Positions 1,971 to 63,401 of a stretch of DNA of 64,000 bases are shown here, piece by piece. A program made the position numbers and the translations under genes. How positions within the stretch are numbered: the stretch's first letter is position 1; every line of letters starts with the position of its first letter. Origin of the DNA: an uncultured Dokdonia sp. (lineage in GTDB: Bacteria; Bacteroidota; Bacteroidia; Flavobacteriales; Flavobacteriaceae); assembly GCF_947496725.1 (NCBI RefSeq), contig NZ_CANMDS010000001.1, positions 558,001-622,000 on the forward strand. Direction: 5' to 3'. The notes under the pieces are model-generated. The model made no database searches and was not told the origin of the DNA. It saw nothing but the letters and a program-made list of their open reading frames with translations.

Positions 1971-4177
1971 TATCTAATAGGGAGTTGAAAATAAAAAGTG
2001 GCTCCTTGATCTACCTTTCCTTCTGCCCAGATAGTTCCCTTATGTTTATCTACAACACGCTGTGCTATGGCTAGGCCTATACCAGATCCCTCAAACTCAT
2101 CTTTTACAAGTCTATTAAAAACGCCAAATATTTTTTCCTTATGAGCCTCATTAAAACCTATACCATTGTCTTTTATAAAAAAAACTGCTGGAGACTCATC
2201 TCTTCTTGCTCCTATATATATGGTAGGATTTTCCTCTGTATGACTATATTTTAAAGCATTACCTATGAGGTTACTTAATAACTGAAAAATCATCCCTCTA
2301 TCTCCATATGCTTTGGGTAAATCTCCCTCTACCTCTATAGTGTTGTTATTATATTTTTTATCGAGCTGTAAAAATTGCAACACCTCACCTACTAGCTCTT
2401 GCATATCAAAAACTCCCATAGCAATTTGATCCTTCCCTATACCAGAAAATGCTAGTATATCATCTATAAGGGTGTTCATCTTACTTGTTGAGTCTATAAT
2501 GGTCTGTATGGCATTCTTACCATAATCATCTAGGCTCTCAAAATAATCTTCCTTTATTATCTGAGCAAATCCATCTATACCTCTTAATGGTGACCTTAAA
2601 TCGTGAGAAACACTGTAACTAAAGGACTCTAATTCCTTGTAAGCCTCTTTTAATTTATCATTAAGCTCTTTTACTTCTTGATATCTACTTATAATGATAT
2701 TAGATATACTTGTTCTTAAAGCTTGTGCAGAAGCAATTTCATAATCTTTCCAAGGTAGTGACGTAAGTACTTGCTCTTGGTTCCATTTTGCAAAAGATTT
2801 ACGAGGCGTCAAGCGCTTACCTTCTTCTACCACAGCTTTTTCTGGATTTCCACCCCAAGATATTACTTGTTTCAACTCTGGCTTAAACCAGAGAATACAG
2901 TCTTTTTCACCCTTTGCAATAAAAACACAAAGTACTCCGGAAGCCATTTTGGCGAAAGCCTTACCCTTATCATACTCTTTTGTGAGATTATGAGAGGTGT
3001 ATGTATCACCCATTTGCGAGTTATAAATCCAGTCTACAAGGTCTAATATATCTTCACTTGCAGGTGTCTCCCCTACTGTAGAAATCTTATTTTCTAAAAA
3101 TATAGCGCCACCAGTTGCCTCTGTGATGCTCAACATAGATGTGGTTTTTTCTGTAAGACCACTATGTACATCCCACCCATCACTCATTTGCTCCACGAGT
3201 TTTGTTCGGGTGGCTACAGTTGCATTAATACGAGTGAGTACCTCATTTGAAGATCGCAATGTAAGCTGCGTAGAGAAAACCTGTGTCAAAAATTTTATAG
3301 TCTGTCTCTGGTAGTAATTTATAAACTTAGGACTGTAATGGTGGCAAGCAATAAGCCCCCACAAGTTACCATTGCTTATTATTGCTGCCGTGAGTGTTGC
3401 TCCCACTTTCATATTCTCTAGATACTCTATATGTATAGGAGAAGATGCTCTGGACTCGCAATTTGTGAGGTCTAAAGGAAAACCCTGTTCATTAAGTTCT
3501 GGATAAACAGCAGCTGTCTTAGATTTTACATCTGCTATAATACGCACGCCTTGCGTTAAAAATGCCTTACGTGCTTGCTGTGGTATATCTGTGGCAGGAT
3601 AATGCATCCCTAGCCAGCTTTCTAGGGCTACATCACGAGACTCAGAGATAATGGTCCCGTTCCAGTTTTGGTCAAATTTATAAACCATTACTCGGTCGTA
3701 TCCAGTAAGCTCTTTTATAAGGTTTGCCGTTTTATCACACATCCCGCTCACCGTAATAGCCTGACTGAGATCTGTAATAATATCAGAAAGCTGTCGCTGC
3801 ACTATGTGAGCTTCTGCTTGTGCCACTATAGGCTCTAGCTCTATATAAATAAGGTCTTCTTTGTAATGAGTAATTACTACATATCTCTTCTCTTTAACTT
3901 CGACTTCAATAGCCTGGGTATTTTTACCTTCAATATGAGTATTGATAGTGCCAGCAGTTGATCCAAATATATCTTCAAGAGAGATTGTATGAATGTCTTC
4001 ACGCTTTCGCGAAAGCAAATTAAATACATTCTCAGAAACACGTACGAGTTGTTTTTTAAGTGCATCTATCACAAAAAGATAGGCGTGCGACTGTACTTGT
4101 CCTAATAAATGTATAGGCTCCTTATCACAATTAGTAAGGTCTATCTTTTTTGGATATAATTTCGAAGGGGTTGACAT
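1970..4177 (-). CDS. bphP: Bacteriophytochrome histidine kinase
   Basis: A red/far-red photoreceptor kinase of 735 residues. Cys17, in DLTNCDKEPIH, matches the biliverdin-attaching cysteine of bacteriophytochromes. Order: PAS (about 5-110), GAF (about 125-290, with YPATDIPQQAR, the form of the chromophore-pocket PxSDIP motif), PHY (about 300-480, with the tongue motif PRKSF), HisKA (His525 in SVSHDLRSP) and HATPase (NLIGNALKY, DNGIGF, GSGIGLA). I chose the ATG at 4177, because the in-frame GTG/ATG candidates further upstream lie inside the preceding gene; 4177 is 4 bp after that gene's stop. A copy of the iterated palindrome (4003-4016) encodes LSRK at residues 55-58 in the PAS domain. The next gene starts in its stop codon. 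Confidence 0.95.
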   Translation of the reverse strand: MSTPSKLYPKKIDLTNCDKEPIHLLGQVQSHAYLFVIDALKKQLVRVSENVFNLLSRKREDIHTISLEDIFGSTAGTINTHIEGKNTQAIEVEVKEKRYVVITHYKEDLIYIELEPIVAQAEAHIVQRQLSDIITDLSQAITVSGMCDKTANLIKELTGYDRVMVYKFDQNWNGTIISESRDVALESWLGMHYPATDIPQQARKAFLTQGVRIIADVKSKTAAVYPELNEQGFPLDLTNCESRASSPIHIEYLENMKVGATLTAAIISNGNLWGLIACHHYSPKFINYYQRQTIKFLTQVFSTQLTLRSSNEVLTRINATVATRTKLVEQMSDGWDVHSGLTEKTTSMLSITEATGGAIFLENKISTVGETPASEDILDLVDWIYNSQMGDTYTSHNLTKEYDKGKAFAKMASGVLCVFIAKGEKDCILWFKPELKQVISWGGNPEKAVVEEGKRLTPRKSFAKWNQEQVLTSLPWKDYEIASAQALRTSISNIIISRYQEVKELNDKLKEAYKELESFSYSVSHDLRSPLRGIDGFAQIIKEDYFESLDDYGKNAIQTIIDSTSKMNTLIDDILAFSGIGKDQIAMGVFDMQELVGEVLQFLQLDKKYNNNTIEVEGDLPKAYGDRGMIFQLLSNLIGNALKYSHTEENPTIYIGARRDESPAVFFIKDNGIGFNEAHKEKIFGVFNRLVKDEFEGSGIGLAIAQRVVDKHKGTIWAEGKVDQGATFYFQLPIR
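4003..4016. repeat. Iterated palindrome copy 1 (in bphP)
   Basis: Perfect GCTTTCGCGAAAGC inside the bacteriophytochrome gene, read as LSRK. Confidence 0.95.
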
Positions 4178-4181
4178 ATGC

Positions 4182-7100
4182 TTACTTTTTAATTTTAAAG
4201 TAAAATGTACTACCCACATTTACTTGAGAGTCTACCCAGATACTACCATCGTGCAGTTTTACAATTTTCTCACAATGTGCAAGACCTACTCCAGTACCTT
4301 CATATTTATGCTGTGTAGATGCTCTACCAAAAATTTTAAATACATTATCCAGGTCTTCTTGAGCAATGCCTATACCGTTATCATTTATAACAAATGTCCA
4401 GAAAACATCATCTTCAAAAGAAGATATTCTTACCATCGGGCTTACATCTGGCTTACAATACTTAAGAGAGTTACCTATTAGATTTTGAAACAATAATCTA
4501 AGCTCTGTCTTATATGCCCAGATAGATGGCATCCTGCTTAGGTGTATTTCACCTTTGCATTCTCTTAATCGTTTACCTAGGTCATATTTTACAATCTCAA
4601 GTAATTCTTGCACATCTACCTCTGTACGCTCTAACTCTTGACCTATACGACTATGCTCTAACAATCCTTTTATTTGGTCTGCCATTCTACCCGCTGCACC
4701 ATAGATATAACCTAGATACTCTGTAGCTTTTGGATCAAGATTTTCACCAAATTTCTTTAAGATTACATCACTACTAAAGCGTATTGTACCTAGAGGTTCT
4801 TGTAAATCGTGCGAGCAAATAGAGACAAACTGCTCTAGGTCTGTATTAATGCGTTGCAGCTCCTCGTTCTTATCATACATAAGTTGCTGCGCCTCTTGTA
4901 GGTCAGATATATTTACTAATGTAGATCTTGAGTACGAGGGTCCTTCATCTGGTATAACAAGTTCTGAATTGAGAATAATAGGTATTTCTACTCCATCTAT
5001 ATCTACCAGAGTCATTTGTTCCCCCTCTATAACACCTGTTTTTTGAATTTGATCTAGAAGTCCCAGGCCTTTTGCCTTAGACTTATCTGTATAAAAATCA
5101 AAGATGCGTCTGCCTATAGCTTCCTCCCTTGACTCGAGCTTAAGGGTGTCTATAAATATTTTATTACACTCTACAATACGTCCTGTAGAAGGATCTACAC
5201 TAGCGTGCATCACTGGGTCATTTTCATAAAAGTCCTTAAACTTCTGCTGGCTTTCTTTCAGTTTCTTTTGAGATTCTACTGTTTTTGTAATGTCTACAAA
5301 GGTAATTACAGAGCCCTCTATTTTATTAGTTCCTGTATAAAATGGTGATATACGTCTTATATATGAGCGACCATCTCTTTTATTAATTTGAGTCTCATTT
5401 ACATTACCTGTCTTCATCACTTTTTCAATCTTTTCTTTAAGTGATGATTTTTTTCCAGTTCCTAGTTGCGTTAAGAAATGCTCAATGGGTCTCCCCAGGT
5501 CTTGTTTCATTAACTTAAAGTGCTCTTGTATAGATGGCGTAAATTTTCTTATAGTAAGCTGCCTATCTAAAAATATGGTAGCAATTTGCGTACTATTAAG
5601 AATGTTGTCCATATCTGCATTAAGTAATGCTAGATCATCCATTTTTTCGATATGCTCAACATTTACTGTATGTAGCTCCTCGTTTACACTTTGTAATTCT
5701 TCATTTGTGCTTTGTAGTTCCTCATTTGAGGCTAGTAGCTCTTCATTAAGTGTTTGTAATTCTTCATTACTAGTCTCTGCGTCCTCTAAAGCTTTTTTGA
5801 GCTCACCACGAGTTTCTTCTATCTCATCTATGAGGTCTTTAATACGCTCGTCTGGTTGTGCAGCAAGATTCATAGTGCCTCGTTCAATCGCAGCATCAGG
5901 ATTTAAGGCTTGTTCTATAAAGGTGATGACATAGCTACAGTCATCTGTGTTATTATTAAAAACTGGCTTTACTAGTACGTTAATTGTGGTCTCAACACCT
6001 GCTTTTATAGCCACTACATTATTATAAATAAAATCTTTTTTAGAACGTTTTGCCTTCCTAGCTGCAGAGTTTACCGCAGTTTTGAGATTATCGGGAAGCA
6101 TCTTAAGTAGATCTAAAGAAAAACCACTGTCTGGTAGTTGTGCATATTTAGAAAAAGATCCCATTGCATCCACCACCTTAAAGTCTTGATCTACAAAAAC
6201 GCTGGCTGTATCAAATTGAGAAATAAGCGCATTGCTTATTTTCATTTTAATATCACTAGTAAATGTCTCCTTTGGTTGTACCTGGGTCTTTTTTTGCTTT
6301 CGCGAAAGCATAAAGCTACTCTTATCTGCATTTGAAGTAAGTAACTCACTATGTAATCGCTCTGAGGGGTGTATGTTCTTAAATATTTTAAGCTTTGCAT
6401 TAATGGTCTCAAAATAGTTACGCAAAGCCGTATTAGACTCGCTAGAGCCTAAAAATAAGTAACCATTAAGCTTTAACGCATAATGTAATGTATGTAAAAC
6501 GGCAGTTTGCACTTCTGGCTTTAAGTAGATAAGTAAATTTCTACACACGACCATATCCATATTTTTAAAAGGAGGATCCTTTAAAATATCGTGATTAGAA
6601 AAAATTATTTTCTTTCTTAAATCTGGATGAATTCTATACTCATCATCATCTTTTATAAAGTATGTGTGTAATTTACTAGGAGGTACACTCTGTGTCACTG
6701 TGCTAGGAAAAACTCCTTGAGATGCTTGCTGTATATGCTCTTCAGAAATATCTGTAGCAAATATTTTGAGCTTTATATCCTTATCCTGTCTTTTTATCTC
6801 CTCTTGAAAAAGTATCGCCAGTGAGTAAGCCTCTTCTCCAGTAGAGCAAGCAACGTCCCACACTTTTACAGTATCACCATCACGCTTGTTTGTAACGATA
6901 TTAGGTATTGTCTCAGCTTCTAGTAAATTCCAAGCTTTTGTATCCCTAAAGAACTTTGTCACACCTATTAAAAACTCTTTATATAGAATTGAGACTTCTT
7001 CTGGATGAATTTTGAGATATGCTATATAAGCATCAAAACTTCCCATCTTGAGGTTAGTCATACGCCTTTCTGTACGGCGTAAGATGGTAGGTCTTTTGTA

Positions 7101-8368: not shown

Positions 8369-8457
8369 TAGGGTGTCTTTATAGATTTGTAAATAATTAA
8401 AGGGGGTAAATGATATCTATACCTCACTTTGTATATGGTGAAGGTAAGGATTGGTGC

Positions 8458-8471
8458 GCTTTCGCGAAAGC
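8458..8471. repeat. Iterated palindrome copy 3 (intergenic)
   Basis: Perfect 14-mer between the rpoC terminator and the DUF3467 gene. The symmetric core extends to CGCTTTCGCGAAAGCG. Confidence 0.95.
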
Positions 8472-8542
8472 GTAATAAACAACTTCATCCTCTCACACAA
8501 AATCATAACTACCGTGTATGTAAAAAATGTAGTGCATTTCTG

Positions 8543-8582: not shown

Positions 8583-8615
8583 ATATATCTAACTGTTACG
8601 TTAGTACAATAAGTA

Positions 8616-12917: not shown

Positions 12918-12965
12918 AATTCTGTGTATGTCGAATTAATTATTGTTGTGAATGGTTGTTGTTAC

Positions 12966-12979
12966 GCTTTCGCGAAAGC
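12966..12979. repeat. Iterated palindrome copy 4 (rpoB-rpoC spacer)
   Basis: Perfect 14-mer in the short spacer between rpoB and rpoC. It must be transcribed within the operon and could form a compact RNA hairpin. Confidence 0.95.
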
Positions 12980-13013
12980 GGAATCCCGAGAGACTCCACT
13001 TTCCAAAAACCAT

Positions 13014-20220: not shown

Positions 20221-20234
20221 GCTTTCGCGAAAGC
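20221..20234. repeat. Iterated palindrome copy 5 (tuf-tRNA-Trp spacer)
   Basis: Perfect 14-mer, preceded by TTAC, between tuf and the Trp tRNA. Confidence 0.95.
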
Positions 20235-21704: not shown

Positions 21705-21718
21705 GCTTTCGCGAAAGC
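21705..21718. repeat. Iterated palindrome copy 6 (between two tRNAs)
   Basis: Perfect 14-mer in the spacer between tRNA-Gly and tRNA-Thr(GGU), so it is transcribed in the tRNA precursor. Confidence 0.95.
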
Positions 21719-23934: not shown

Positions 23935-25119
23935 TTATTTTTTTGAAATTTCTTCAGTTTTAGGCTTGTAAGTCTTCTTATCGATAACCATTTTTGCGAT
24001 GATTTCTCGTAAAATTTCAGATGTTCCTCCACCTATAGGACCTAGGCGACTATCACGTAACATACGTGCTAGCGGGTATTCTTCCATATAACCGTAACCT
24101 CCTAACATCTGTAAACAATCATAAATTACCTCATCTGCAATTTTTGTTGCTGTAAGCTTAGACATCGTAGCTTCTTTTACAACATACTCGCCATTACCTA
24201 GGCGATGAGCCACTGTATAATTAAAAGCTTTAGACATCTCCACCTCTGCAGTACGTTCTGCTAGCTTGTGACGTAATGCCTGAAACTTATCTATAGTAAC
24301 TCCAAAAGCGGTACGCTCTTTCATATAACCTAACGCATACTCTATAGCATACTCTGCTCTAGCGTGTGCATTAATACCCATAATTAAACGTTCTGATGCA
24401 AAGTGCTGCATTATGTACCCAAAACCAGCATTCTCCTCTCCCATTAGATTTTCGGCAGGAACTTTTACATTGTCAAAAGAAATCTCACCAGTATCTGATG
24501 CTCTCCAACCTAGTTTATCAAGTTTTGTAGCGTTAATACCAGGCATATCTCTATCTAAAAGGAATATACTCATACCCTTCCCTCCTAGTTCTGGTGCCGT
24601 CTTTGCAGCAACAACTAGATAGTCTGAGTAAACACCATTTGTAATAAAGGTTTTTGATCCATTTATAATGTAGTGATCACCTTCTTTTACAGCTGTTGTG
24701 CGCATACCTGCAACATCACTTCCCCCAAAAGGTTCTGTAATACACAAGCACCCTATTTTATCACCTGCAATACTTGCTGCTAGATATTCAGATTTTATTC
24801 TAGTATCTCCCTCTGCATTAAGGTGCGTCATTGCTAGATAAGCGTGCGCCCATATGGCAGCAGCAAATCCACCACTATTAATTTTCTGTAACTCTTCTAG
24901 TAGTATTACAGTATAAAAGAAATCAAGGTTCATCCCTCCATACTCTTCTGGATAAGCAATCCCGAAGAATCCCATATCTCCAAATTTCTTCCAGATAAAA
25001 CGTTCTATCTGTCCAGTTTCCTCCCATTTATCAAGGTGTGGGACTACTTCCTTTTGAAGAAAATCTTTTAAGCTTTCGCGAAAGAGGTTATGTTCCTCTG
25101 TAAAATACATATCTGTCAT
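23935..25119 (-). CDS. Acyl-CoA dehydrogenase
   Basis: About 394 residues from the ATG at 25119; a TTG further upstream is less likely. It is an FAD-dependent enzyme that makes a trans-2-enoyl-CoA in fatty-acid or amino-acid breakdown. Visible family motifs: CITEPFGGSDVAGMRTTA (substrate and FAD binding), GEISFDNVKVP, and the C-terminal LQMLGGYGYMEEYPLARMLRD and GGTSEILREIIA. The palindrome core at 25073-25084 encodes LFRES in the N-terminal helix. Substrate chain length cannot be told from motifs. Confidence 0.92.
   Translation of the reverse strand: MTDMYFTEEHNLFRESLKDFLQKEVVPHLDKWEETGQIERFIWKKFGDMGFFGIAYPEEYGGMNLDFFYTVILLEELQKINSGGFAAAIWAHAYLAMTHLNAEGDTRIKSEYLAASIAGDKIGCLCITEPFGGSDVAGMRTTAVKEGDHYIINGSKTFITNGVYSDYLVVAAKTAPELGGKGMSIFLLDRDMPGINATKLDKLGWRASDTGEISFDNVKVPAENLMGEENAGFGYIMQHFASERLIMGINAHARAEYAIEYALGYMKERTAFGVTIDKFQALRHKLAERTAEVEMSKAFNYTVAHRLGNGEYVVKEATMSKLTATKIADEVIYDCLQMLGGYGYMEEYPLARMLRDSRLGPIGGGTSEILREIIAKMVIDKKTYKPKTEEISKK
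25072..25085. repeat. Iterated palindrome copy 7, degenerate (in acyl-CoA dehydrogenase)
   Basis: GCTTTCGCGAAAGA: 13 of 14 bases match; read as LFRES. Confidence 0.85.
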
Positions 25120-25173
25120 ATTCTTATTTTTATCCCTGCTTACTGAAGATATCGCAGGCAATCATAGCACATT

Positions 25174-26058
25174 TTAATTTATTTGTAAATATAACGCTAT
25201 TATATCATATTTGAAGTCTGTCATACCCTCCAAATCTTTCAATTCTTCTAGTGAGCTAATTCCCTCTCTAAGCGTACGATAGTCTACTATTTCTTTTGCC
25301 AAATCAAAATTAAGCAATGGAACGGTAGAAAGGTCTGATGCTGTCGCGGTATTTACGTTTACAAAACGTATTTCTGGTTTGTTTTTTACCGTATAATGAT
25401 TAAGCACAAGTCTCTTTATAGATTTATCTACACCATAGACACTGTAAATCTGAAAATCTACTTGATAACCTCCCACCTTATCACGGTGTCGTATAATAGC
25501 AGTAGCAGCATTTTCATCTACGCCCTCTATTGCGAGTAAATCTTCATAAGTTATGCTATTGAGCATTCCTTTCTCTTCGGCGGTTTTCCACTTCTTCTTA
25601 TAATTATTTTTCTTTTGTGGATTCTTGCGTTGCTCTAGCAACCATTTTGGCCATTTAAAATAGGGAGATATTTGCGCCAGTAGTGAGTCTGATACTTTTG
25701 AGACTTGCTGAAACTCTGCTGCAGAGTTAAACCATTTTCCGCTTTCGCGAAAGCGTACTACTCTATCTATCTCTTCTGTACTCATCCCGAGTTTATACCC
25801 ATTATAATCTGTGAGTAATGTAGGGTTAAAAGGATAAATTTTAGGCTTTCTTCTTTCTAGTTCAATCGCTTTAAGCGAGTCTATTTCTTTTTGAAAAGCA
25901 AGCACACGAGCATCTTCTTGCAGTGGCGATACGGGTGAATCTGTAAGATTTTTACTAACAGCAATAACTCCTAGACACGCAAGACAAAGTATGGCAAAAA
26001 ATAAAATCCCATTTCGCTTACGTCTGTCGTAAACAAAATGGGATTTAAATAGTCTCAT
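25174..26058 (-). CDS. ComEA-like helix-hairpin-helix protein, membrane-anchored
   Basis: 294 residues. The N-terminal segment KSHFVYDRRKRNGILFF is followed by one membrane helix (about 18-36, ILFFAILCLACLGVIAV). The rest lies outside and carries repeated helix-hairpin-helix units: LLTDYNGYKLGMSTEEIDRVVRFRESG, ITYEDLLAIEGVDENAATAIIRHRD, VNTATASDLSTVPLLNFDLAKEIVDYR. Proteins of this type bind DNA and relate to the uptake protein ComEA, but a role in transformation is not shown here. The palindrome encodes RFRES in the first unit. A terminator-shaped hairpin covers codons 5-18. It lies 11 bp downstream of the symporter gene. Confidence 0.8.
   Translation of the reverse strand: MRLFKSHFVYDRRKRNGILFFAILCLACLGVIAVSKNLTDSPVSPLQEDARVLAFQKEIDSLKAIELERRKPKIYPFNPTLLTDYNGYKLGMSTEEIDRVVRFRESGKWFNSAAEFQQVSKVSDSLLAQISPYFKWPKWLLEQRKNPQKKNNYKKKWKTAEEKGMLNSITYEDLLAIEGVDENAATAIIRHRDKVGGYQVDFQIYSVYGVDKSIKRLVLNHYTVKNKPEIRFVNVNTATASDLSTVPLLNFDLAKEIVDYRTLREGISSLEELKDLEGMTDFKYDIIALYLQIN
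25741..25754. repeat. Iterated palindrome copy 8 (in ComEA-like gene)
   Basis: Perfect 14-mer followed by GTA, read as RFRES. Confidence 0.95.
25996..26046 (-). terminator. Terminator-shaped hairpin inside the start of the ComEA-like gene
   Basis: Perfect 11-base arms (26004-26014 and 26036-26046) with inner arms TTACG/CGTAA, followed on the minus strand by TTTTATTTTTT. It begins 24 bp after the symporter stop, so it is well placed to end that transcript, yet it is coding sequence of the next gene. Confidence 0.65.
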
Positions 26059-29145: not shown

Positions 29146-29189
29146 GATGGTTTTTGTTACGCTTTCGCGAAAGCGTAACAAAAACCATC
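29146..29189. repeat. 44-bp perfect palindrome built on iterated palindrome copy 9
   Basis: The 14-mer at 29161-29174 is the centre of a perfect 22+22 bp inverted repeat, with arms GATGGTTTTTGTTACGCTTTCG. It lies between the recQ stop and the PspC-like gene. It is the longest dyad around any copy in the window. Confidence 0.95.
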
Positions 29190-33325: not shown

Positions 33326-33339
33326 GCTTTCGCGAAAGC
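33326..33339. repeat. Iterated palindrome copy 10 (intergenic)
   Basis: Perfect 14-mer extended to 20 bp (TACGCTTTCGCGAAAGCGTA), 20 bp before the AhpD-like gene and so in its leader. Confidence 0.95.
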
Positions 33340-37865: not shown

Positions 37866-37879
37866 GCTTTCGCGAAAGC
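37866..37879. repeat. Iterated palindrome copy 11 (folE leader)
   Basis: Perfect 14-mer within the full 22-bp form TTACGCTTTCGCGAAAGCGTAA, 34 bp before the folE ATG. Confidence 0.95.
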
Positions 37880-38712: not shown

Positions 38713-40197
38713 ATGCCTTTATACCAAGATCAAGAACTCACAGTTTACAACTCGCTTTCTGGAAAGAAAGAAATCTTCACACCTCTACTCGAGGGTTATG
38801 TAGGTATGTATGTGTGCGGTCCTACGGTATATAGTAATGTACACTTAGGTAATGTGCGCACCTTTATGAGTTTTGATATGATATTTAGGTATCTCAAACA
38901 CTTAGGTTATAAAGTGCGCTATGTGCGTAATATTACAGATGCTGGTCACCTCACAGATGATGCAGATCAAGGAGAAGACAAGATTGCAAAAAAAGCAAGA
39001 CTAGAGCAAATTGAGCCTATGGAAGTTGTACAGAAGTACACGCTAGACTTTCACGACATTCTCAATAAATTTAACTTCTTACCTCCTAGTATAGAACCTA
39101 CAGCTACAGGTCACATCATAGAGCAAATAGAAATAATCAAAAAGATTATAGACAACGGGTATGCTTATGAGAAAAATGGCTCTGTATACTTTGATGTAAT
39201 AAAATTTAATGAAGACCACGAGTATGGTAAACTCTCTGGCCGCAAGCTAGAAGATATGATTACAAACACTCGTGCCCTTAGTGCGCAAGATGAGAAGAAT
39301 AATCCTCAAGATTTTGCACTTTGGAAAAAAGCCGAACCTGAGCACATAATGCGCTGGCCTAGCCCGTGGGGTGATGGCTTCCCAGGGTGGCACCTAGAGT
39401 GTACGGCAATGAGTACAAAATATCTAGGAGAACAGTTTGATATACACGGTGGTGGTATGGATCTTAAGTTCCCTCACCACGAGTGTGAGATTGCTCAAAA
39501 TGAAGCTGCAATAGGTACAGAGCCAGTAAAGTACTGGCTACACGCAAATATGCTCACTCTTAACGGCCAGAAAATGGCAAAGAGTACTGGTAACAGTATC
39601 AACCCAGGTGAGATTTTTACTGGAGACAGTCCCCACTTAACAAAAGGATTTGCTCCTAGCGTTGCACGGTTTTTTATCTTACAGAGTAGCTACCGCAGCA
39701 TTATGGACTTCTCAAACGATGCATTACTAGCGAGTGAAAAAGGTTTTAACAGACTAATGGAAGCGCTTAAGATTGCAAAAAATCTAGACACATCTAAAGA
39801 AAGTAGCTTTAATGTAAACGACTGGAAGGCGTCTTGCTACGCCGCGATGAATGACGATTTTAACACTCCGATACTCATTGCACATCTTTTTGATGCAGTA
39901 AAGCAAATACACCTTATTAAAGACGGAAAAGCAACCATCACTGCAAGTGATCTGAAGTTATTACTTGAGACGATTAATGCTTTCGTTTTTGACGTACTTG
40001 GACTTGAAGACAATAACGCTTTCGCGAAAGCGGACGACTCAAAATTAAGTGGCACCGTAGAGTTACTTATAAAACTTCGTAAAGAAGCACGTGAAAACAA
40101 AGATTTTGCACTAAGTGACAAAATACGAGATGAACTTATAGCGCTGGGTATCCAGCTAAAAGATGGTCGTGAGGGTACTACCTTTACTGTAAACTAA
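38713..40197 (+). CDS. cysS: Cysteine-tRNA ligase
   Basis: 494 residues. Class I signatures: the HIGH-type region [17 protein letters not shown] with a zinc-binding Cys, the further zinc ligands in [10 protein letters not shown] and [10 protein letters not shown], and KMSKS as KMAKSTGN. The C-terminal part carries a palindrome copy read as AFAKA in a loop ([10 protein letters not shown]) just before the final helices. yidD starts inside its stop codon (TAATG). Confidence 0.97.
40018..40031. repeat. Iterated palindrome copy 12 (in cysS)
   Basis: Perfect 14-mer, read as AFAKA near the C-terminus of cysteinyl-tRNA synthetase. Confidence 0.95.
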
Positions 40198-42906: not shown

Positions 42907-42920
42907 GCTTTCGCGAAAGC
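42907..42920. repeat. Iterated palindrome copy 13 (intergenic)
   Basis: Perfect 14-mer in the spacer between cinA and rpmB, 15 bp downstream of the cinA stop. Confidence 0.95.
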
Positions 42921-46013: not shown

Positions 46014-46484
46014 ATGAATATAAAATACTTAAGTATCATTGTTGTTTTTTTCGCTTTCGCGAAAGTTTCCTTTGCCCAAACCTCGGCCTTTACTACACAA
46101 GATGTGATAGGGACCTATACAAATGATTACAGAAAAGCACTCATCACAAACCCCGAAGTGACTAGCCTACCTGTGCAATGGCATCTTATACTATCGCCAG
46201 ATGGAACTTTTGAATACCACAACTCAAGACAATTAAAAGGACAGCCAGAAGAGCATTGGTATGCAAGAGGGCAATGGACTTTTAAAGGTAAAATAGTGTC
46301 ATTTACAAGCTCATCACAAGATATAGATGATAAGTACGCCATAAATCTAAACGGTTCAAAGGCCCGATTTTTTAAAAAATCACCACGTAATAACTCCCCA
46401 AAACCTCAACCTACCTACATTCATTTTTTCAAATCTGAGTATGCAGTAACCAAAAGCTTAAAACTTCACAAAACCAATGAATAG
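46014..46484 (+). CDS. Small secreted protein, possibly lipocalin-like
   Basis: 156 residues with a signal peptide ending near VSFAQ. The mature part is beta-rich (GTYTNDYRKALITNPE, WHLILSPDGTFEYHNSR, GQWTFKGKIVSFTSS), loosely like lipocalin-type families, but I cannot assign a family with confidence. A palindrome copy encodes AFAK inside the signal-peptide core. It overlaps the next gene by 8 bp, and both products are exported, so they may act together. Confidence 0.65.
   Translation: MNIKYLSIIVVFFAFAKVSFAQTSAFTTQDVIGTYTNDYRKALITNPEVTSLPVQWHLILSPDGTFEYHNSRQLKGQPEEHWYARGQWTFKGKIVSFTSSSQDIDDKYAINLNGSKARFFKKSPRNNSPKPQPTYIHFFKSEYAVTKSLKLHKTNE
46053..46066. repeat. Iterated palindrome copy 14, degenerate (in a signal peptide)
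   Basis: GCTTTCGCGAAAGT, 13 of 14 bases; read as AFAK within the signal peptide of the small secreted protein. Confidence 0.88.
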
Positions 46485-47130
46485 ATTAAAACTTATATAC
46501 ACCGTCTTACTTACTGTGAGTATGGTATTTTTCGCGAAAGCGCAAAACACCTCCACCCCAGATGTAGAGCTCATAGAAGAGAAGCAGCCTAAGCGATGGC
46601 TTCTTTATGCCCAAAACAATACAGATCAAGAACAAGAAGCTTTTCTCATTGTACAGGGCGAAGGCTTTAGACGTAGTGCAGATAGACCGGTTATAAAAAA
46701 AATACCGCCTAATGAAAAGGTACTTATGATTACTTTAATACCGTTAAGAGGTGCCACACCTACGTATACTAAGATATTTAACTACAACAACAAGCTACAA
46801 TCTATAAGTAAGCGCAAAGGCGAAGACGACGAAGCTTACGTAAACATACGTCCTATTATAGCAAGTGAGTTTACGGTCTTTACAGAAGATAACTGTGACA
46901 AATGTGAAGTGCTTATTAATTACCTAAATGACAACCACCTTAAATACCGAACTCTCGTCGTATCAAAACATAAAAAGGTAGCAGATTTTATGTTTCAACA
47001 TCTCAAAAGTGATGGCCACGATGGCAGTAAAGTAGGTTTACCCGTTATTATGCACAAAGGCAAAAAGAACTATGATATAGAAGATATAGATGCTTTTATA
47101 AGTAGTTATGACTGGAGCACCTTAGAATAG
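46477..47130 (+). CDS. Secreted protein with glutaredoxin-like C-terminal domain
   Basis: 217 residues. A signal peptide (about 1-23, ending FFAKAQ) is followed by an N-terminal beta domain of about 110 residues that I do not recognise. The C-terminal part (about 130-217) resembles glutaredoxin: FTVFTEDNCDKCEVLINYL with redox Cys140-x-x-Cys143, then VGLPVIMHKGK with the cis-proline. An oxidoreductase role outside the cytoplasm is inferred. The signal peptide contains a half-degenerate palindrome. Confidence 0.75.
   Translation: MNRLKLIYTVLLTVSMVFFAKAQNTSTPDVELIEEKQPKRWLLYAQNNTDQEQEAFLIVQGEGFRRSADRPVIKKIPPNEKVLMITLIPLRGATPTYTKIFNYNNKLQSISKRKGEDDEAYVNIRPIIASEFTVFTEDNCDKCEVLINYLNDNHLKYRTLVVSKHKKVADFMFQHLKSDGHDGSKVGLPVIMHKGKKNYDIEDIDAFISSYDWSTLE
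46529..46542. repeat. Iterated palindrome copy 15, degenerate (in a signal peptide)
   Basis: TTTTTCGCGAAAGC: the right half is intact and two left bases are changed; read as FFAKA. Confidence 0.7.
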
Positions 47131-48607: not shown

Positions 48608-49738
48608 CTATTCTATTTCAAACGTGATTATCTCTCCTCTTCCCTCACTACTATTACTGCCTATAGCAAAAGTACTCTTTTTAGGTATTAGTTTATAAGA
48701 AACACCACTACTGGCGTGTGTTATAATTTCCTTAATTATTTTCTCATAGCCCGTATACTGGGCATCAAAGAGTATTTCTCGACCCTTCTTTGTCGCAGAT
48801 AGCTCGTTTTGGGCCACTACCGTCTTTTTCACACTTTGTGACAACTTTCTCGCCAGATCATCATTATTAGACAGCAGTATATACTCTTTAATTTTTTGAT
48901 GATCTTTTATGACCGCTTGGTTTTTAAAATGAGTAATCCAAGACTTGCCTTTTGCAACACCTAAACCTAGTCTCACTATTGTTTGTTGAAATACATTTTT
49001 ATACAAATGCTTATCATAAAAGAGCTGCATTGCTCCATAAAAACGCTTTCTGTAACGTTTATCTTTTACGGTACTTTCTCCCTTAAAGTGTATAATAGCA
49101 GTATCCCCAAGGTAATAATTTACATAACCCGCTTGCAATACGGTATACGAGAGGTCTATATCTTCACCATACATAAAATAACGCTCGTCAAAACCGCCTA
49201 CTTCTGTATAAACTGCACGAGGCATAAACATAAAAGCACCTACAAGTACAGATACCTCTCCTATTTCATTGTTTGTAAGGTGTGAAGCATAATAATGTCT
49301 AGCATCACCTATCATCTTATTGAGCGATACTTTAAGTGTGGGGATGTTTCTTTTACTTTCTGGTAAAAATCTACCGGTTCCGTCCACCAGCTGTACTCCT
49401 ATAATGCCTAATTCTTGTTGCGCTTTCGCGAAAGCGTATACATCATTAAATGTGTTTTCACCCACTACCGTATCTGGATTGAGAATACAGACATACTCGC
49501 CTTGAGCTACAGCTACGCCTTGATTATTTGCTTTAGAAAAACCTACATTATCTTTATTTGCAATAAGAATAACCTGAGGAAACAGGTCTCTTACCATTGC
49601 TGCACTACCATCTATTGACGCATTATCTACGACTATAATCTCTGCATCTAGATTTTGTATACTAGCAGTAACACTATCTAAACAGAGATATAGATAGTCT
49701 TTTACATTATAGTTTACAATGACAATAGATAATTGCAA
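48608..49738 (-). CDS. Family 2 glycosyltransferase (rhamnosyltransferase-like)
   Basis: 376 residues with a TTG start; no in-frame ATG is near. The GT-A fold begins LSIVIVNYNV, with IIVVDNASIDGS and the metal-binding segment LNPDTV (residue about 91). GGFDERYFMYGEDIDLSYTV marks the acceptor region of the WbbL-like group. It probably adds a sugar in surface polysaccharide synthesis; donor and acceptor are unknown. The palindrome is read as YAFAKAQQE in a surface helix. Confidence 0.87.
   Translation of the reverse strand: MQLSIVIVNYNVKDYLYLCLDSVTASIQNLDAEIIVVDNASIDGSAAMVRDLFPQVILIANKDNVGFSKANNQGVAVAQGEYVCILNPDTVVGENTFNDVYAFAKAQQELGIIGVQLVDGTGRFLPESKRNIPTLKVSLNKMIGDARHYYASHLTNNEIGEVSVLVGAFMFMPRAVYTEVGGFDERYFMYGEDIDLSYTVLQAGYVNYYLGDTAIIHFKGESTVKDKRYRKRFYGAMQLFYDKHLYKNVFQQTIVRLGLGVAKGKSWITHFKNQAVIKDHQKIKEYILLSNNDDLARKLSQSVKKTVVAQNELSATKKGREILFDAQYTGYEKIIKEIITHASSGVSYKLIPKKSTFAIGSNSSEGRGEIITFEIE
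49422..49435. repeat. Iterated palindrome copy 16 (in glycosyltransferase)
   Basis: Perfect 14-mer within the 16-bp core CGCTTTCGCGAAAGCG, read as AFAKA. Confidence 0.95.
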
Positions 49739-51272: not shown

Positions 51273-52232
51273 ATGCTCAAAGCTGGCGTTCTAGGTGCAG
51301 GCCACTTAGGAAAAATACACTTAAAACTTCTTAAACTATCAGAAAACTATGAACTGGTAGGCTTTTACGACACCTCAAAAGAGGTACGTGACGCCATATC
51401 AACAGAGTTTGGCTATGTAGCATTTGATAGTGAAGAAGCACTTATAGACGCCTGTGATATGGTAGATGTTGTAACGCCTACCACATACCACTTCACAAGT
51501 GCAGAAAAAGTAATTAAAGCTGGAAAACATCTCTTTATAGAAAAACCTATCACAAGTACGGTAGAAGAAGCAGAGCAATTGCTCGCCCTAGCAAAGAAGC
51601 ACAATGTGTTAGGACAGGTAGGTCAAGTAGAGCGTTTTAACCCAGCATTTATGGCGGTAAATGATGGTATAAAGAGCCCTATGTTTATAGAAGCGCATAG
51701 ACTTGCAGAATTTAACCCTAGAGGTACAGATGTACCTGTTGTGCTAGACCTTATGATACACGACATAGATGCGATATTAAGCGTGGTACAAAGCCCTGTA
51801 AAAAGTGTAAACGCTAGCGGTGTCTCTGTTATATCTGAAACACCAGATATTGCAAACGCACGCATTGAGTTTGAAAACGGCTGTGTGGCAAACCTCACTT
51901 CTAGCCGCATCTCTATGAAAAATATGCGCAAGGCTCGTTTCTTTCAAAAAGACGCCTACATCTCTGTAGACTTTTTAGAGAAAAAAGTAGAAGTTGTAAA
52001 AATGAAGGATGCACCAGAAAATCCAGATGATTTTGCGATGATTCTTCAAAATGCAGAGGGGCTCAAAAAGCAAATATATTTTGACAATCCAGAGGTACCT
52101 AGCAATAATGCAATACTTGATGAGCTAGACGCTTTCGCGAAAGCAATAAAAGATAACACCACTCCTATCGTCTCACTTGAGGCAGGTACAGAGGCACTGC
52201 GCGTAGCCAAAATGATTATCGCAGATTTTTAA
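51273..52232 (+). CDS. Gfo/Idh/MocA family oxidoreductase
   Basis: 319 residues. NAD(P)-binding GVLGAGHLGKIHLK at the N-terminus, the family's EKP motif (HLFIEKPITST), and a C-terminal alpha/beta domain starting near GQVGQVERFNPAF. Substrate unknown. It is the first of four plus-strand genes (with hydroxyacyl-CoA dehydrogenase, DUF1015 and YggS) that I recall as a common neighbourhood in Flavobacteriia. The palindrome near the end reads AFAKA (LDAFAKAIKDN). Confidence 0.9.
   Translation: MLKAGVLGAGHLGKIHLKLLKLSENYELVGFYDTSKEVRDAISTEFGYVAFDSEEALIDACDMVDVVTPTTYHFTSAEKVIKAGKHLFIEKPITSTVEEAEQLLALAKKHNVLGQVGQVERFNPAFMAVNDGIKSPMFIEAHRLAEFNPRGTDVPVVLDLMIHDIDAILSVVQSPVKSVNASGVSVISETPDIANARIEFENGCVANLTSSRISMKNMRKARFFQKDAYISVDFLEKKVEVVKMKDAPENPDDFAMILQNAEGLKKQIYFDNPEVPSNNAILDELDAFAKAIKDNTTPIVSLEAGTEALRVAKMIIADF
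52131..52144. repeat. Iterated palindrome copy 17 (in Gfo/Idh gene)
   Basis: Perfect 14-mer, read as AFAKA in a C-terminal helix. Confidence 0.95.
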
Positions 52233-54428: not shown

Positions 54429-55075
54429 TGAGTATAGCAGAAAATATTTTACGCTTTCGCGAAAGCATCCCACAAAACGTAACTCTTGTAGCGGTTTCAA
54501 AAACAAAACCCGTAGCAGATCTTATGGAAGCCTATGAGGCTGGACAACGCATTTTTGGAGAAAATAAAATCCAAGAAATGACCGAGAAGTGGGAAGAAAT
54601 GCCAAAAGATATACAATGGCATATGATAGGCCACGTACAGACTAACAAGGTTAAGTTTATGGCTCCCTTTGTAAGTCTTGTGCACGCGGTAGATCGCATA
54701 AAGCTCCTTAAAGAAATTAACAAACAGGCACTTGCAAATAATCGTGTGATAGATGTACTTATACAGGTGAAAATTGCGCGAGAAGATTCAAAATTTGGTA
54801 TGGCGGTAGAAGATGTTACGGCACTTTTTCAATCTAAAGAGCTTGACAACTATCCTAATGTAAACGTGGTAGGCCTTATGGGTATGGCAACCTTTACAGA
54901 TGATCAACGCCAGGTACAGGCAGAGTTTGAGTTGCTAGAAGGGTTATTTTTACGCTTTCGCGAAAGCGCAAATCTCACCATTTTATCCTCAGGTATGAGT
55001 GGTGATTACAAACTAGCCATAGATAATGGAAGCACTATGATACGTGTAGGGAGTAGTATATTTGGCGCTAGATAG
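54428..55075 (+). CDS. yggS: YggS/PROSC-type PLP-binding protein
   Basis: 215 residues. Lys25 lies in the PLP-binding segment TLVAVSKTKPV, followed by IFGENKIQEM, WHMIGHVQTNK and LSSGMSGDYKLAI with the phosphate-binding serines. It keeps PLP homeostasis. Two palindrome copies fall in this one gene, both read as LRFRES, at about residues 8-13 and 175-180. It shares its start with the DUF1015 stop. Confidence 0.94.
   Translation: MSIAENILRFRESIPQNVTLVAVSKTKPVADLMEAYEAGQRIFGENKIQEMTEKWEEMPKDIQWHMIGHVQTNKVKFMAPFVSLVHAVDRIKLLKEINKQALANNRVIDVLIQVKIAREDSKFGMAVEDVTALFQSKELDNYPNVNVVGLMGMATFTDDQRQVQAEFELLEGLFLRFRESANLTILSSGMSGDYKLAIDNGSTMIRVGSSIFGAR
54453..54466. repeat. Iterated palindrome copy 18 (yggS, N-terminal)
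   Basis: Perfect 14-mer, preceded by TTTTA, read as LRFRES. Confidence 0.95.
54954..54967. repeat. Iterated palindrome copy 19 (yggS, C-terminal)
   Basis: Perfect 14-mer, preceded by TTTTTA, read as LRFRES; second copy in the same gene, 501 bp from the first. Confidence 0.95.
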
Positions 55076-57414: not shown

Positions 57415-58318
57415 GTATCTCATTGCCATTGTAGGACCAACCGCTATAGGTAAAACGGCTCTCTCTATAAAAGTCGCCCAGCATTTTAATACAGAGATTC
57501 TCTCTGCAGATAGTAGGCAATTTTTTAAGGAGATGTACATAGGTACGGCTGTACCAGAGCCAGAAGAACTTGCAGCAGCAACCCATCACTTTATACAACA
57601 CTTATCTGTAGATGAGCCTTACAGCGTAGGCCATTTTGAAAAAGATGCCATAAAAAAGATTACAACCTTGCACAAAACGCATAATGAACTCGTTATGGTA
57701 GGCGGTTCTGGAATGTATGTAGACGCTGTCATAAATGGTCTAGATGAATTTCCAGAGGTAAAACCTGGCGTGAGAGAAAATCTTAAAACTTTACTAGCAA
57801 CAGACGGCAAAACAGCTTTACAAAAGCTTCTTAAAGAAAAAGATCCCACCTATTATTCTCAAGTAGACATAGATAATACACAACGAGTGATTAGAGCACT
57901 CGAGGTCTGCCTATCATCTGGGGAGGCATTTTCATCTTTTAGAGATAAGCCCAGACCTGCCCGTGATTTTCAAACCATTAAAATAGGCCTTAAAGCAGAC
58001 CGTGAAATTATGTACGATCGCATAAACAGGCGTGTAGATATTATGGTTGAAAATGGACTCGTTGAGGAGGTAGAAAGTTTGCTTTCGCGAAAGCAAAATA
58101 ATGCACTTATCACTGTGGGTTACAGAGAGCTTTTTGAATATTTTGAAGGGAAAGTTACACTAGAGCGTGCTGTAGAAAATATAAAAACAAACACCCGAAG
58201 ATTTGCCAAAAGACAAATGACCTGGTACCGTAAAGATGCGAGTATACATTGGTTTGATTTTGAAACTCCTTTTGAAAAAATCGCTTCGTTTTTAAACAAG
58301 AAAACGCACCACTCATAA
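57404..58318 (+). CDS. miaA: tRNA dimethylallyltransferase
   Basis: 304 residues from a GTG at 57404; an earlier ATG at 57344 would extend 60 bp further into the channel gene with no family match. P-loop IVGPTAIGKTALS, DSRQFFKEMYIGTA and the later GGSGMYVDAV and RRFAKRQMTWYR are all MiaA motifs. It adds dimethylallyl to A37 of tRNAs reading UNN codons. A palindrome copy encodes LSRK in a surface loop. Confidence 0.95.
   Translation: MTSKYLIAIVGPTAIGKTALSIKVAQHFNTEILSADSRQFFKEMYIGTAVPEPEELAAATHHFIQHLSVDEPYSVGHFEKDAIKKITTLHKTHNELVMVGGSGMYVDAVINGLDEFPEVKPGVRENLKTLLATDGKTALQKLLKEKDPTYYSQVDIDNTQRVIRALEVCLSSGEAFSSFRDKPRPARDFQTIKIGLKADREIMYDRINRRVDIMVENGLVEEVESLLSRKQNNALITVGYRELFEYFEGKVTLERAVENIKTNTRRFAKRQMTWYRKDASIHWFDFETPFEKIASFLNKKTHHS
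58081..58094. repeat. Iterated palindrome copy 20 (in miaA)
   Basis: Perfect 14-mer, read as LSRK (LLSRKQNN). Confidence 0.95.
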
Positions 58319-58364
58319 AGTGGTACGTTTTATAAACTCACTAATATCTTTTGATATTAAATGC

Positions 58365-59075: not shown

Positions 59076-59076
59076 A

Positions 59077-60684: not shown

Positions 60685-60730
60685 TTCAGGCGGTTTCGGT
60701 TTAACCAAATGTTAACAAGCGGTAGTTATG

Positions 60731-61330: not shown

Positions 61331-61332
61331 AA

Positions 61333-62277: not shown

Positions 62278-62292
62278 TTATGATGGTTCCTT

Positions 62293-63303
62293 TTATTTAT
62301 CTAATGTACTAAAAAAAAGATGTGGATAACGCTTTCGCGGAAGCTCTCTCAACCATTTTACTGCTATTGTAGAAGATAGAAAACCCGTACCATAGCCATA
62401 AAACTGAATACCGGTTGCAACAATACTTAGACAACCTATCACAAGGCTTTTATTTATGATACTTGAGTGCACAAAAATAATCACAACATACAATGCGTAA
62501 AGCTTGAGCAGTATTGTATTACCTAGCAATGTTATCATCAAGCTTACTACTAGACCTATGATAAACAAAGTGGGAAACCAGTAAGTGAGCTTTGCAGTAC
62601 TGGGGTGCCATAAATTAAGTATAGGTCGCACTAGTCCAAATTTATGAACTTGAGTATAGAACTTTTTCCAAGAGATGCGACGTTTATGATAGACAAAAGC
62701 TTCTGGTATAAGCGCCGTTTTAAAACCTAGATCCCATAATCGCAATACAAGATCTGGATCCTCTCCGGGATGAATATCTCCAAAACCTTTACTAGCTTGA
62801 AAAGCCTTTTTAGACAATCCCATATTAAAACTACGAGGTTGAAATTTTCCGGCATCTTCACTTCCGCCGCGTATACCTCCCGTGGTAAAAAACGACGTCA
62901 TACTATAACTTATAGCCTTCTGCAAGTTAGAAAAGTCTGGATGTGCTGCATCTGGACCGCCAAAACAATCTACATATCGCTCCTTTAACTTTTTATCCAT
63001 TACCTCAACATACTGTGGAGGCAACATACAATCTGAATCTAGTATGATAAAATAATTACCTCTCGCTCTCTCCATCCCATAGTTGCGAGAACTCCCTGGG
63101 CCTGAGTTAGGCTTTGTTAAATAAGTAATATCAAGATCTGGGTAAGCGTCTATAACTTCTTTACAAGGTATGCTGGAGCCATCTTCAATAATTACAATCT
63201 CATAAGGAATAGTGGTTTCTTGCTGGTCAAAACTAGCAAGGAGTTCGGCCACCTCATCTGGTCGATTATAAACGGGAATAATAAATGAATATGAAAGTTG
63301 CAT
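62293..63303 (-). CDS. Family 2 glycosyltransferase, membrane-associated
   Basis: 336 residues from ATG 63303. I reject the upstream ATG at 63357 because it lies inside the fabI terminator. The GT-A domain starts YSFIIPVYNRPDEV, with IVIIEDGSS and ILDSDCMLP (metal-binding DSD), and GGIRGGSEDAGKFQPRSFNMG. Two membrane helices follow (about 240-290). The C-terminal LPRKRYP comes from a degenerate palindrome. Substrate unknown. Confidence 0.88.
   Translation of the reverse strand: MQLSYSFIIPVYNRPDEVAELLASFDQQETTIPYEIVIIEDGSSIPCKEVIDAYPDLDITYLTKPNSGPGSSRNYGMERARGNYFIILDSDCMLPPQYVEVMDKKLKERYVDCFGGPDAAHPDFSNLQKAISYSMTSFFTTGGIRGGSEDAGKFQPRSFNMGLSKKAFQASKGFGDIHPGEDPDLVLRLWDLGFKTALIPEAFVYHKRRISWKKFYTQVHKFGLVRPILNLWHPSTAKLTYWFPTLFIIGLVVSLMITLLGNTILLKLYALYVVIIFVHSSIINKSLVIGCLSIVATGIQFYGYGTGFLSSTIAVKWLRELPRKRYPHLFFSTLDK
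62331..62344. repeat. Iterated palindrome copy 21, degenerate (in glycosyltransferase)
   Basis: GCTTTCGCGGAAGC: one central mismatch; read as LPRK rather than LSRK, so a point mutation away from the consensus. Confidence 0.85.
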
Positions 63304-63340
63304 ATAAAACAAAGCTAAGACATAGCTGCAGGCTAGACAA

Positions 63341-63370
63341 TAAAAAACCACCGACATATAGACGGTGGTT
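63341..63370 (-). terminator. fabI intrinsic terminator
   Basis: Arms AACCACCG (63346-63353) and CGGTGGTT (63363-63370), followed on the minus strand by a T-run. It sits 41 bp after the fabI stop. Confidence 0.85.
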
Positions 63371-63387
63371 GGTATGGGTTTGATTCC

Positions 63388-63401
63388 GCTTTCGCGAAAG
63401 C
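63388..63401. repeat. Iterated palindrome copy 22 (downstream of fabI)
   Basis: Perfect 14-mer between the fabI stop and its terminator, inside the 3' UTR. Confidence 0.95.

Follow-up and report, generated by a model that had tools for sequence, protein, structure and literature searches.

What kind of site is GCTTTCGCGAAAGC, a 14-letter perfect palindrome that recurs throughout a stretch of Dokdonia DNA, and which process keeps it there? The stretch of 64,000 nucleotides that was analysed is called the window. A sequence-only reading had counted 22 copies in it, 18 perfect and 4 degenerate, and the recount of matches with up to two mismatches was identical, compared with a mean of 0.15 and a maximum of 2 in 100 dinucleotide shuffles. 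All listed starts were recovered except one, since the copy placed at 46529 begins at 46528 (Table 1). A first-order model gives 0.00013 expected exact copies, close to the earlier estimate of about 0.0002 per 64 kb. The iteration extends far beyond the window. The own genome of 3.29 Mb contains 905 exact copies (one per 3.6 kb) and the reversed control 0; matches with up to two mismatches, including the exact ones, number 1113 versus 13 for the control. Two outcomes had been named that would speak against the repeat, genome counts near random expectation and assignment of all copies to a known transposon or regulon, and neither was found.

Table 1. Copies of GCTTTCGCGAAAGC in the window. The site is symmetric and its strand is given as '.'.
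Positions	Copy	Strand	Context
4003..4016	exact	.	within ORF 1970-4219(-), phytochrome-type histidine kinase
6296..6309	exact	.	within ORF 4182-7778(-), CheB/CheR-PAS-kinase protein
8458..8471	exact	.	spacer 3' of rpoC (8616-12917(-))
12966..12979	exact	.	rpoB-rpoC spacer
20221..20234	exact	.	spacer 3' of tuf (20316-21503(-)); exact in G001, mutated in G005, G007, G008
21705..21718	exact	.	spacer upstream of tuf (our gene calls), overlapped by a mechanical 102-aa ORF; exact in G001, G005, G007, G008, G178
25072..25085	degenerate, GCTTTCGCGAAAGA	.	within ORF 23935-25161(-), acyl-CoA dehydrogenase
25741..25754	exact	.	within ORF 25174-26058(-)
29161..29174	exact	.	spacer after recQ (29203-31398(-)); 15-bp arm pairing, longest among 67 spacer copies
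33326..33339	exact	.	spacer of 70 bp, flanking ORFs co-directional
37866..37879	exact	.	spacer; ORF end 37793, next ORF start 37914
40018..40031	exact	.	within ORF 38713-40197(+), cysteinyl-tRNA synthetase; read AFAKA
42907..42920	exact	.	spacer after ORF 42936-44186(-); TTTTTCGCGAAAGC in G005 and G007
46053..46066	degenerate, GCTTTCGCGAAAGT	.	within ORF 46014-46484(+)
46528..46541	degenerate, TTTTTCGCGAAAGC	.	within ORF 46477-47130(+)
49422..49435	exact	.	within ORF 48608-49738(-); exact in G008, gaplessly absent in G005, G007
52131..52144	exact	.	within ORF 51273-52232(+), Gfo/Idh/MocA oxidoreductase
54453..54466	exact	.	within ORF 54428-55075(+), YggS-type PLP homeostasis protein; read FRES
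54954..54967	exact	.	second in ORF 54428-55075(+); read FRES
58081..58094	exact	.	within ORF 57344-58318(+), tRNA isopentenyltransferase
62331..62344	degenerate, GCTTTCGCGGAAGC	.	close to 3' end of ORF 62293-63357(-)
63388..63401	exact	.	spacer of 54 bp, (-) ORF on both sides

In a 462 kb sample, exact copies number 119, those with one mismatch 8 and those with two mismatches 22. By our own tally, 25 of the 30 mismatch variants depart from the exact site solely in the two outermost letters at an end, and the commonest variant is TTTTTCGCGAAAGC. The inner part of the site, TCGCGA, occurs 108 times outside exact copies, with 50.6 expected.

As a word of double-stranded DNA, GCTTTCGCGAAAGC is spread genome-wide and specific to a lineage. 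It was present in all 18 genomes examined of the genus (probably Dokdonia), with 369-905 copies each, in two probable Nonlabens genomes (578 and 664 copies) and in one genome of a third genus (408 copies). The remaining 294 of the 299 sampled genomes of the family have 0-19 copies, and 3 of the 203 sampled genera include a genome with more than 20. A weaker carrier, g162, has 26 exact, 7 one-mismatch and 13 two-mismatch copies in 200 kb. The fourth genus, g126, has 9 and 6 exact copies in its genomes, yet 86 and 74 matches with up to two mismatches (controls 20 and 10), which are eroded remnants. For two related phages whose recorded host belongs to the Nonlabens group (copy number of that host unchecked), 35 kb of each was scanned and contained 0 exact copies.

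According to our gene calls, 67 of the 119 exact copies in the 462 kb are in spacers, which make up 11.4% of the DNA (enrichment about 5-fold), and 52 are in genes; in the window, 9 of 18 are in spacers. Gene type does not explain the copies, as had been stated before, but location matters. Copies are more evenly spaced than chance and are rarely found within approximately 1 kb of another. Compared with a null model allowing one copy per spacer, the coefficient of variation of the spacings in the 462 kb was 0.707 (null 0.955 ± 0.089; lowest of 2000 draws 0.720). Spacings below 1 kb numbered 7 of 118 (null mean 22.2, minimum 10). Twelve 20-kb samples of the G001 chromosome, taken without a located origin or terminus, hold 4-7 copies each, and no strong density change was seen among them. 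The five longest copy-free gaps in the 462 kb have 32-36% G+C compared with 37.5% overall. Copies are low in DNA which is likely foreign, i.e., phages and AT-rich gaps.

Conservation was compared between species of 78-82% DNA identity. In G005 (82% identical), 34 of 39 alignable coding copies and 23 of 33 alignable spacer copies are letter-perfect, whereas control 14-mers are exact in 19.3% (coding) and 25.3% (spacer) of cases; the comparison with G000 leaves out copies not (fully) aligned, namely 39 of 103 in G005 and 47 of 119 in G000. Third codon positions within copies are identical at 165 of 173 places (95%) versus 63.7% elsewhere. The copy in the rpoB-rpoC spacer is exact and identically placed in each of the 16 other genomes of the genus in which this spacer was found (L030, L059-L073), and likewise in G178 (L031). 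In these alignments, GCTTTCGCGAAAGC is conserved base by base at orthologous places, including synonymous positions in genes, with selection acting directly on the DNA. Copies are gained and lost mainly by substitution: at 9 of 11 coding places with a copy only in G000 or only in G005 the alignment is gapless, and PDB homologues at four coding copies showed no insertion of a whole copy, with gaps of 1-3 residues at three of the four. Among the 10 aligned spacer copies inexact in G005, a gap is present in 4 and an insertion in 1. Because orthologous copies are letter-perfect and third codon positions are conserved, we conclude that GCTTTCGCGAAAGC is a symmetric recognition site in double-stranded DNA that is being maintained, rather than a hairpin, a regulon or a mobile repeat. 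With distance from shared copies, silent identity declines only weakly, from 0.67 down to 0.57, and no slope is seen within 3 kb when all copies are taken; therefore, a recombination footprint is not evident, which counts against uptake and exchange.

The flanks had been said to often extend the dyad. This is true for the letter adjoining the core, which is C/G on 86% of arms in the 462 kb; the full TTAC...GTAA 22-mer is found on just 11 of the 119 exact copies. The arms in Dokdonia approximate TGGTTNTTATTAC - core - GTAATAANAACCA; they are symmetric, weakly specified and differ by genus, being mostly TAC in Dokdonia and TCC or TTC in Nonlabens. No covariation between the arms of one copy was detected, the mean paired arm of spacer copies being 2.00 versus 1.97 after shuffling, and their total arm pairing was less than shuffled (z -2.5), i.e., without excess hairpin pairing. 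Downstream of the dyad the sequence is A-rich, not T-rich. We strongly infer that a symmetric, probably dimeric protein of the carrier genera reads GCTTTCGCGAAAGC as double-stranded DNA. The predicted reader would certainly contact the core with the few letters adjoining it, and perhaps up to about 40 bp. Interspecies conservation past approximately the sixth arm letter is not above background and the arm bias in g162 stops near letter 7; therefore, a 40-bp footprint is not demonstrated.

The explanations were weighed against this picture. A selfish or mobile repeat of the REP/REPIN type, or the insertion into spacers of an RNA hairpin or terminator, would account for palindromic units enriched in spacers. 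It also agrees with the unrelated hairpins in the rpoB-rpoC spacer of other genera, with second-copy remnants beside the first copy in this spacer at five loci of the genus (L067-L069, L072, L073) and with the gaps and insertion at inexact spacer copies. It is very improbable given the many coding copies, mostly without insertion and with selection at synonymous sites, the arms without covariation and the A-rich downstream sequence; no conserved longer unit was seen. An inserted mobile unit confined to spacers is largely contradicted by coding copies and gapless differences, and the selfish element proposed by the sequence-only reading is further contradicted by orthologous conservation and third positions. 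The same reading had compared the repeat with HIP1 of cyanobacteria, and as a perfect palindrome with 905 copies, present in all 18 genomes of the genus, it is indeed highly iterated in this way. Like HIP1 and the alternate HIPs, it occurs in genes and spacers, is lineage-wide and has variants concentrated at its ends, the last as described for HIP1 in PMC4390886. Unlike the 8-bp HIP1, it has 14 bp with weak arms, a lower density and more than half of its copies in spacers. In a HIP1-type scheme, which follows Elhai's model (PMC4390886), a solitary methyltransferase would modify the whole site or the TCGCGA within it, and the palindromes would be made and kept through strand marking or methyl-directed repair. 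The main text of that paper contains neither a word beginning with Bacteroid nor TTTCGCGAAA. PF02086 methyltransferases were found in 6 of 11 carriers (6 of the 8 Dokdonia genomes searched), PF01555 in 3 (one below the cut-off) and PF00145 in 2, so that none of the three families is common to the carriers, and G007 and G223 match none. Methyltransferase sites are usually shorter than 14 bp, and TCGCGA outside exact copies is only 2.1-fold enriched, partly by decayed copies. A methylation target, as suggested before, is unsupported within these families and rather unlikely; no publication on a Dokdonia methylome was found in the literature searched. Even less likely is a palindromic, Chi-like signal for recombination or repair that a helicase-nuclease would read, its regular spacing serving the rescue of broken forks. 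Chi stands at about one per 4.6 kb in E. coli, which is near the density here, orientation does not matter for a palindrome, and even spacing and the absence of exact copies in two phages would fit; however, known Chi sites have 5-8 nt and are read on one strand.

Two of the candidate roles named before, uptake signal and chromosome organisation, are retained, and the fingerprint best fits uptake. A dimeric nucleoid protein on the roughly 900 sites might bridge, compact or anchor the chromosome evenly throughout, which is possible though somewhat doubtful. Noc, SlmA and MatP are dimers on 12-16 bp palindromes scattered over genes and spacers, and the perfect dyad with its long core and symmetric, non-covarying arms, the even spacing and density, the selection at single sites and the low density in AT-rich gaps are compatible with such a protein. 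The density of Noc, SlmA and MatP sites varies around the chromosome, unlike that in the G001 samples. No matching protein was found: an extra ParB (PF02195) confined to carriers was not detected, since 10 of the 11 carriers searched have a single match, G002 has 2 and 14 other genomes have 1-2, and the helix-turn-helix of the own ParB resembles by eye that of 12 non-carriers. Even spacing of uptake sequences was once interpreted in terms of compaction, replication or repair (PMC1939737). According to PMC1626085, binding sites of intracellular proteins do not usually have so sharp a consensus, and many more perfect than singly mismatched copies are a property of USS and DUS unlike regulator sites. 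GCTTTCGCGAAAGC has this property (weaker in g162). It further resembles the USS of Pasteurellaceae and the DUS of Neisseriaceae in a copy number of hundreds to thousands, in a spacing that is more even than random, in a preference for non-coding DNA with many coding copies, in being made by substitution, in stable orthologous places, in its limitation to a branch of a family and, for USS, in AT-rich flanks. It differs in being a perfect palindrome with two symmetric arms, in its density and in belonging to Bacteroidota. Known uptake sequences are described as non-palindromic (PMC1939737), which is perhaps not defining, and as standing near one per kb (PMC1626085). The uptake role is moderately favoured as the most likely one, with chromosome organisation as the main rival.

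We tentatively put forward that GCTTTCGCGAAAGC may be a self-DNA recognition signal for uptake or exchange, like USS in Haemophilus and DUS in Neisseria. Kin fragments of a few kb would carry at least one copy and be preferentially bound and imported; biased import and recombination would multiply exact copies and keep them exact, a second copy less than 1 kb away would add little, and copies would erode where the reader was lost, as perhaps in g126. The fuller version, a palindromic uptake signal in Bacteroidota with a symmetric reader, arm dialects by genus and one related genus that lost the system and is eroding, is conceivable and put forward with more reserve. A literature search combining Dokdonia with natural transformation and competence gave nothing relevant. 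The GCTTTCGCGAAAGC string was absent from the literature searched, in agreement with the earlier statement that no function is described.

The maintenance of about 900 letter-perfect sites per genome across species of 78-82% DNA identity implies that a strong process acts on the whole genome of common marine bacteria, and no description of it was found. Since strong carriers, the weaker carrier g162 and the eroded genus g126 can be compared, the system bears on why the consensus of uptake sequences and of HIP1 is so strong. We know of no sequence-specific transformation in the phylum Bacteroidota; if the uptake reading is true, it would have evolved a third time. Whether the process is uptake, folding or repair, GCTTTCGCGAAAGC is a direct handle on it, and a labelled duplex can be used to fish for the reader.

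The 14-bp palindrome GCTTTCGCGAAAGC occurs in the window as 18 exact and four near copies, as the sequence-only reading had counted, and the starts it listed were all recovered save one, the copy placed at 46529 starting at 46528. In 100 shuffles of the window, the mean number of matches was 0.15. Exact copies number 905 in the genome of the source (G000, 3.29 Mb), in which the window spans C1:558001-622000; the reversed palindrome, used as control, is absent from it. Most statistics were calculated for one contiguous region of 462 kb, i.e. 14% of this genome, in which genes were delineated by a simple, crude gene caller of our own (412 genes, 88.6% coding).

Of the 119 copies in the 462 kb, 67 are located in spacers and the other 52 within genes. 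Tandem, divergent and convergent spacers carry copies roughly in proportion to their occurrence, and within genes the frame AFAKA is the most frequent (30/52). Copy spacing is under-dispersed beyond the effect of the spacer preference, and 12 samples around the chromosome of G001, a complete genome of the same genus, contained 4-7 copies per 20 kb. Copy-bearing genes are slightly less conserved at codon positions 1 and 2 than the others (0.903, n = 36, versus 0.924, n = 204). The longest copy-free gap (see table) is perhaps recently acquired DNA. The hexamer CACGTG was 3-fold over-represented in the window (17 versus 5.5 expected); its 82 occurrences in the 462 kb share no longer context.

Conservation was determined between species, the tests covering few species pairs. 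All 18 exact window copies are kept in G001, which is 93% identical. The aligned window copies are exact in 13 of 17 cases in G005, 12 of 17 in G007 and 12 of 15 in G008, three further genomes of the genus; in G178, from another genus (g162), two of the 18 places could be aligned and both are exact. In the G005 alignment (263 kb, 82.3% identical), 34/39 coding and 23/33 spacer copies are exact versus 19.3% and 25.3% of control 14-mers, respectively, whereby 47 of the 119 copies were excluded as incompletely aligned. Third codon positions are identical at 165/173 places within copies versus 63.7% elsewhere (p = 6e-23, with letters within one copy being non-independent). Among 148 comparable spacers, G005 has a copy in 22 of the 33 with a copy in G000 versus three of the 115 without. 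Selection therefore acts on the DNA word and not on the protein alone. For copies not shared with G005, a new copy was found within 1.5 kb in 6/23 cases versus 2.3 ± 1.3, which is only suggestive of compensation of a lost copy by a new one nearby.

Coding places with a copy in only one of G000 and G005 were aligned without gaps in 9/11 cases (4/5 seen from G000, 5/6 from G005), and spacer differences seen from G000 in 5/10; 39 of the 103 G005 copies were without any alignment. As judged from these alignments, copies in genes arise mainly by substitution. PDB homologues were compared at the copies of five window proteins. Two matches were uninformative, as they ended short of the copy; at the four coding copies covered by the others, no insertion of a whole copy was seen, and three of these places had gaps of 1-3 residues.

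The bias of the arms reaches about letter 13 in Dokdonia and stops near letter 7 in g162. In the 5' arm of Dokdonia, coding and spacer copies alike have little C between -3 and -13 (exception: 0.24 at -8 in coding copies) and strongly favour it at -1. Only the near-core arm letters 1, 3, 4 and 6 are conserved above distant ones between species. The two arms of the same copy pair no more than shuffled arms. With this anatomy, the palindrome is a symmetric double-stranded recognition site and not an RNA or cruciform structure; hairpin and terminator readings were rejected, also in view of the copies in genes and their conservation at third codon positions. In variants of the own genome with one or two mismatches, an outer dinucleotide is affected in 25/30 (tally).

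The genus of the source (g1) has 369-905 copies in 18/18 genomes, the lowest two counts coming from assemblies 78% and 85% complete. Larger genomes have hardly more copies (905 at 3.3 Mb, 903 at 5.5 Mb), which would fit sites that are mainly part of the core genome. In a family sample of 299 genomes from 203 genera, five exceed 100 copies: G000 and G003 of g1, G026 (578) and G223 (664) of g10, and G178 (408) of g162. The remaining 294 have 1-19 copies (66 genomes) or zero (228). In genome_contigs (84,980 species), scanned on a subsample with five fixed letters added to the pattern, 27 stretches matched, by title nine Dokdonia, 11 Nonlabens, three Flavobacterium and four others, the last seven with a single copy each. 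The arm letters of the Dokdonia- and Nonlabens-titled loci agree with those of g1 (TAC) and g10 (TCC, TTC), respectively. Of the two longest alignments, one joins a Dokdonia locus to g1 only (74% over 3.2 kb) and the other a Nonlabens locus to g10 (73% over 6.0 kb), so g1 is probably Dokdonia and g10 probably Nonlabens. Most of these titled loci were without any match, however, and for four of the Nonlabens loci the sole match was to g1, whose set is much larger. In a quick RpoC tree (36 rows, mostly best RpoC matches), in which Nonlabens has a long branch, the carrier label needs two changes; a single origin may also account for it. One 20-kb sample from each of 13 other genera contained no other palindrome of comparable density. 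No description of the repeat was found in the literature, most subscription papers lying outside the search.

Allowing up to two mismatches, 11 carriers gave 722-1152 matches (control 9-48) and 20 non-carriers 8-31, near the reversed controls (5-34) and including some island copies. Two genomes of a further genus, g126, gave 86 and 74 matches (controls 20 and 10; exact 9 and 6), as would be expected of a decayed set.

Locations of further features (G000:C1, contig of the source; G084, a low-count genome; L, compared loci)
Feature	Location	Observation
rpoB-rpoC spacer	window 12918-13013; L032-L058	Unrelated hairpin-like sequences in several other genera
Palindrome relative in this spacer, g126	L033, L034	3 mismatches, outer arm letters retained
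Second-copy remnants	L067-L069, L072, L073	Adjoin intact rpoB-rpoC copy, about 25 bp upstream; e.g. GCGAAAGCGTAT in L068, L069
Longest copy-free gap in 462 kb	G000:C1:525934-545539	19.6 kb, 32.3% G+C
parB	G000:C1:662060 (in L023)	
Resistance islands	L107-L114, e.g. L107:240-17918; G084:C3:32-110 kb	RND pump, outer membrane efflux protein, multicopper oxidase, P-type ATPases, ArsP-type permease
Viral contig	L185 (IMGVR_UViG_2617271332_000001)	Three exact copies in 11 kb

The copies of several low-count genomes form clusters (G084, 16/16 within 78 kb), with spacings of 933 and 2446 bp recurring across several genera; the copies are more scattered in G142, G296, G286 and G312. The eight stretches taken from such clusters, of which two overlap, consist of related DNA, and L107, the sole stretch annotated, was identified as an island of copper and heavy-metal resistance genes. 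The island is related between several Flavobacteriaceae genera and has the palindrome at shared places, its hosts having few or no copies elsewhere; the palindrome may mark DNA that has passed through a host of the Dokdonia/Nonlabens type. Between islands, a copy is exact in 56 of 98 non-independent comparisons versus 7.0 expected from flank identity (≤ 0.93, closer pairs excluded); island copies were thus likewise maintained for long, either during residence in carriers or by an island factor. No gap was present in 33/42 non-exact rows (tally, non-independent). In islands of non-carriers, the inner ten letters are affected in 8/9 one- or two-mismatch variants (a small, partly orthologous set); the inner core seems to be guarded where a reader, i.e. 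a putative protein recognising the copies, is present.

Several known kinds of repeat were considered. The REP reading was rejected, 52/119 copies being in genes and 9/11 coding differences gap-free. For HIP1-type palindromes of cyanobacteria, a methylation model described in PMC4390886 predicts a dedicated methyltransferase; three methyltransferase families were searched in 25 genomes and none is common to the 11 carriers, so this reading is not supported by these families. The ParB/Noc reading was rejected: ten of the 11 carriers have a single ParB and G002 has two, versus 1-2 in 14 other genomes, and by eye the helix-turn-helix of the own ParB resembles that of 12 non-carriers. Known parS consensus words gave poor matches only (2-3 mismatches) in the 462 kb around parB; this group may use a different ParB site. 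The five closest copy pairs in the 462 kb (126-656 bp apart) were inspected for an autoregulated reader gene, and only ordinary metabolic or housekeeping-type genes were recognised there by eye from the translations.

The palindrome is a maintained, symmetric, lineage-bound and evenly spaced DNA word, and its reader would be dimeric. Chromosome organisation may be compatible with the same traits as DNA uptake, because even spacing of uptake sequences had earlier been interpreted as pointing to replication, repair or compaction (PMC1939737). The uptake sequences of Haemophilus (USS) and Neisseria (DUS) are characterised in PMC1626085 by a strong consensus, regularity and a non-coding preference with coding copies, and further by lineage sharing, stability and non-insertion. 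The palindrome matches them in all these traits and differs in its palindromy and in the density of GCTTTCGCGAAAGC. By this analogy, its role in the carriers is conjectured to be that of a DNA uptake signal.
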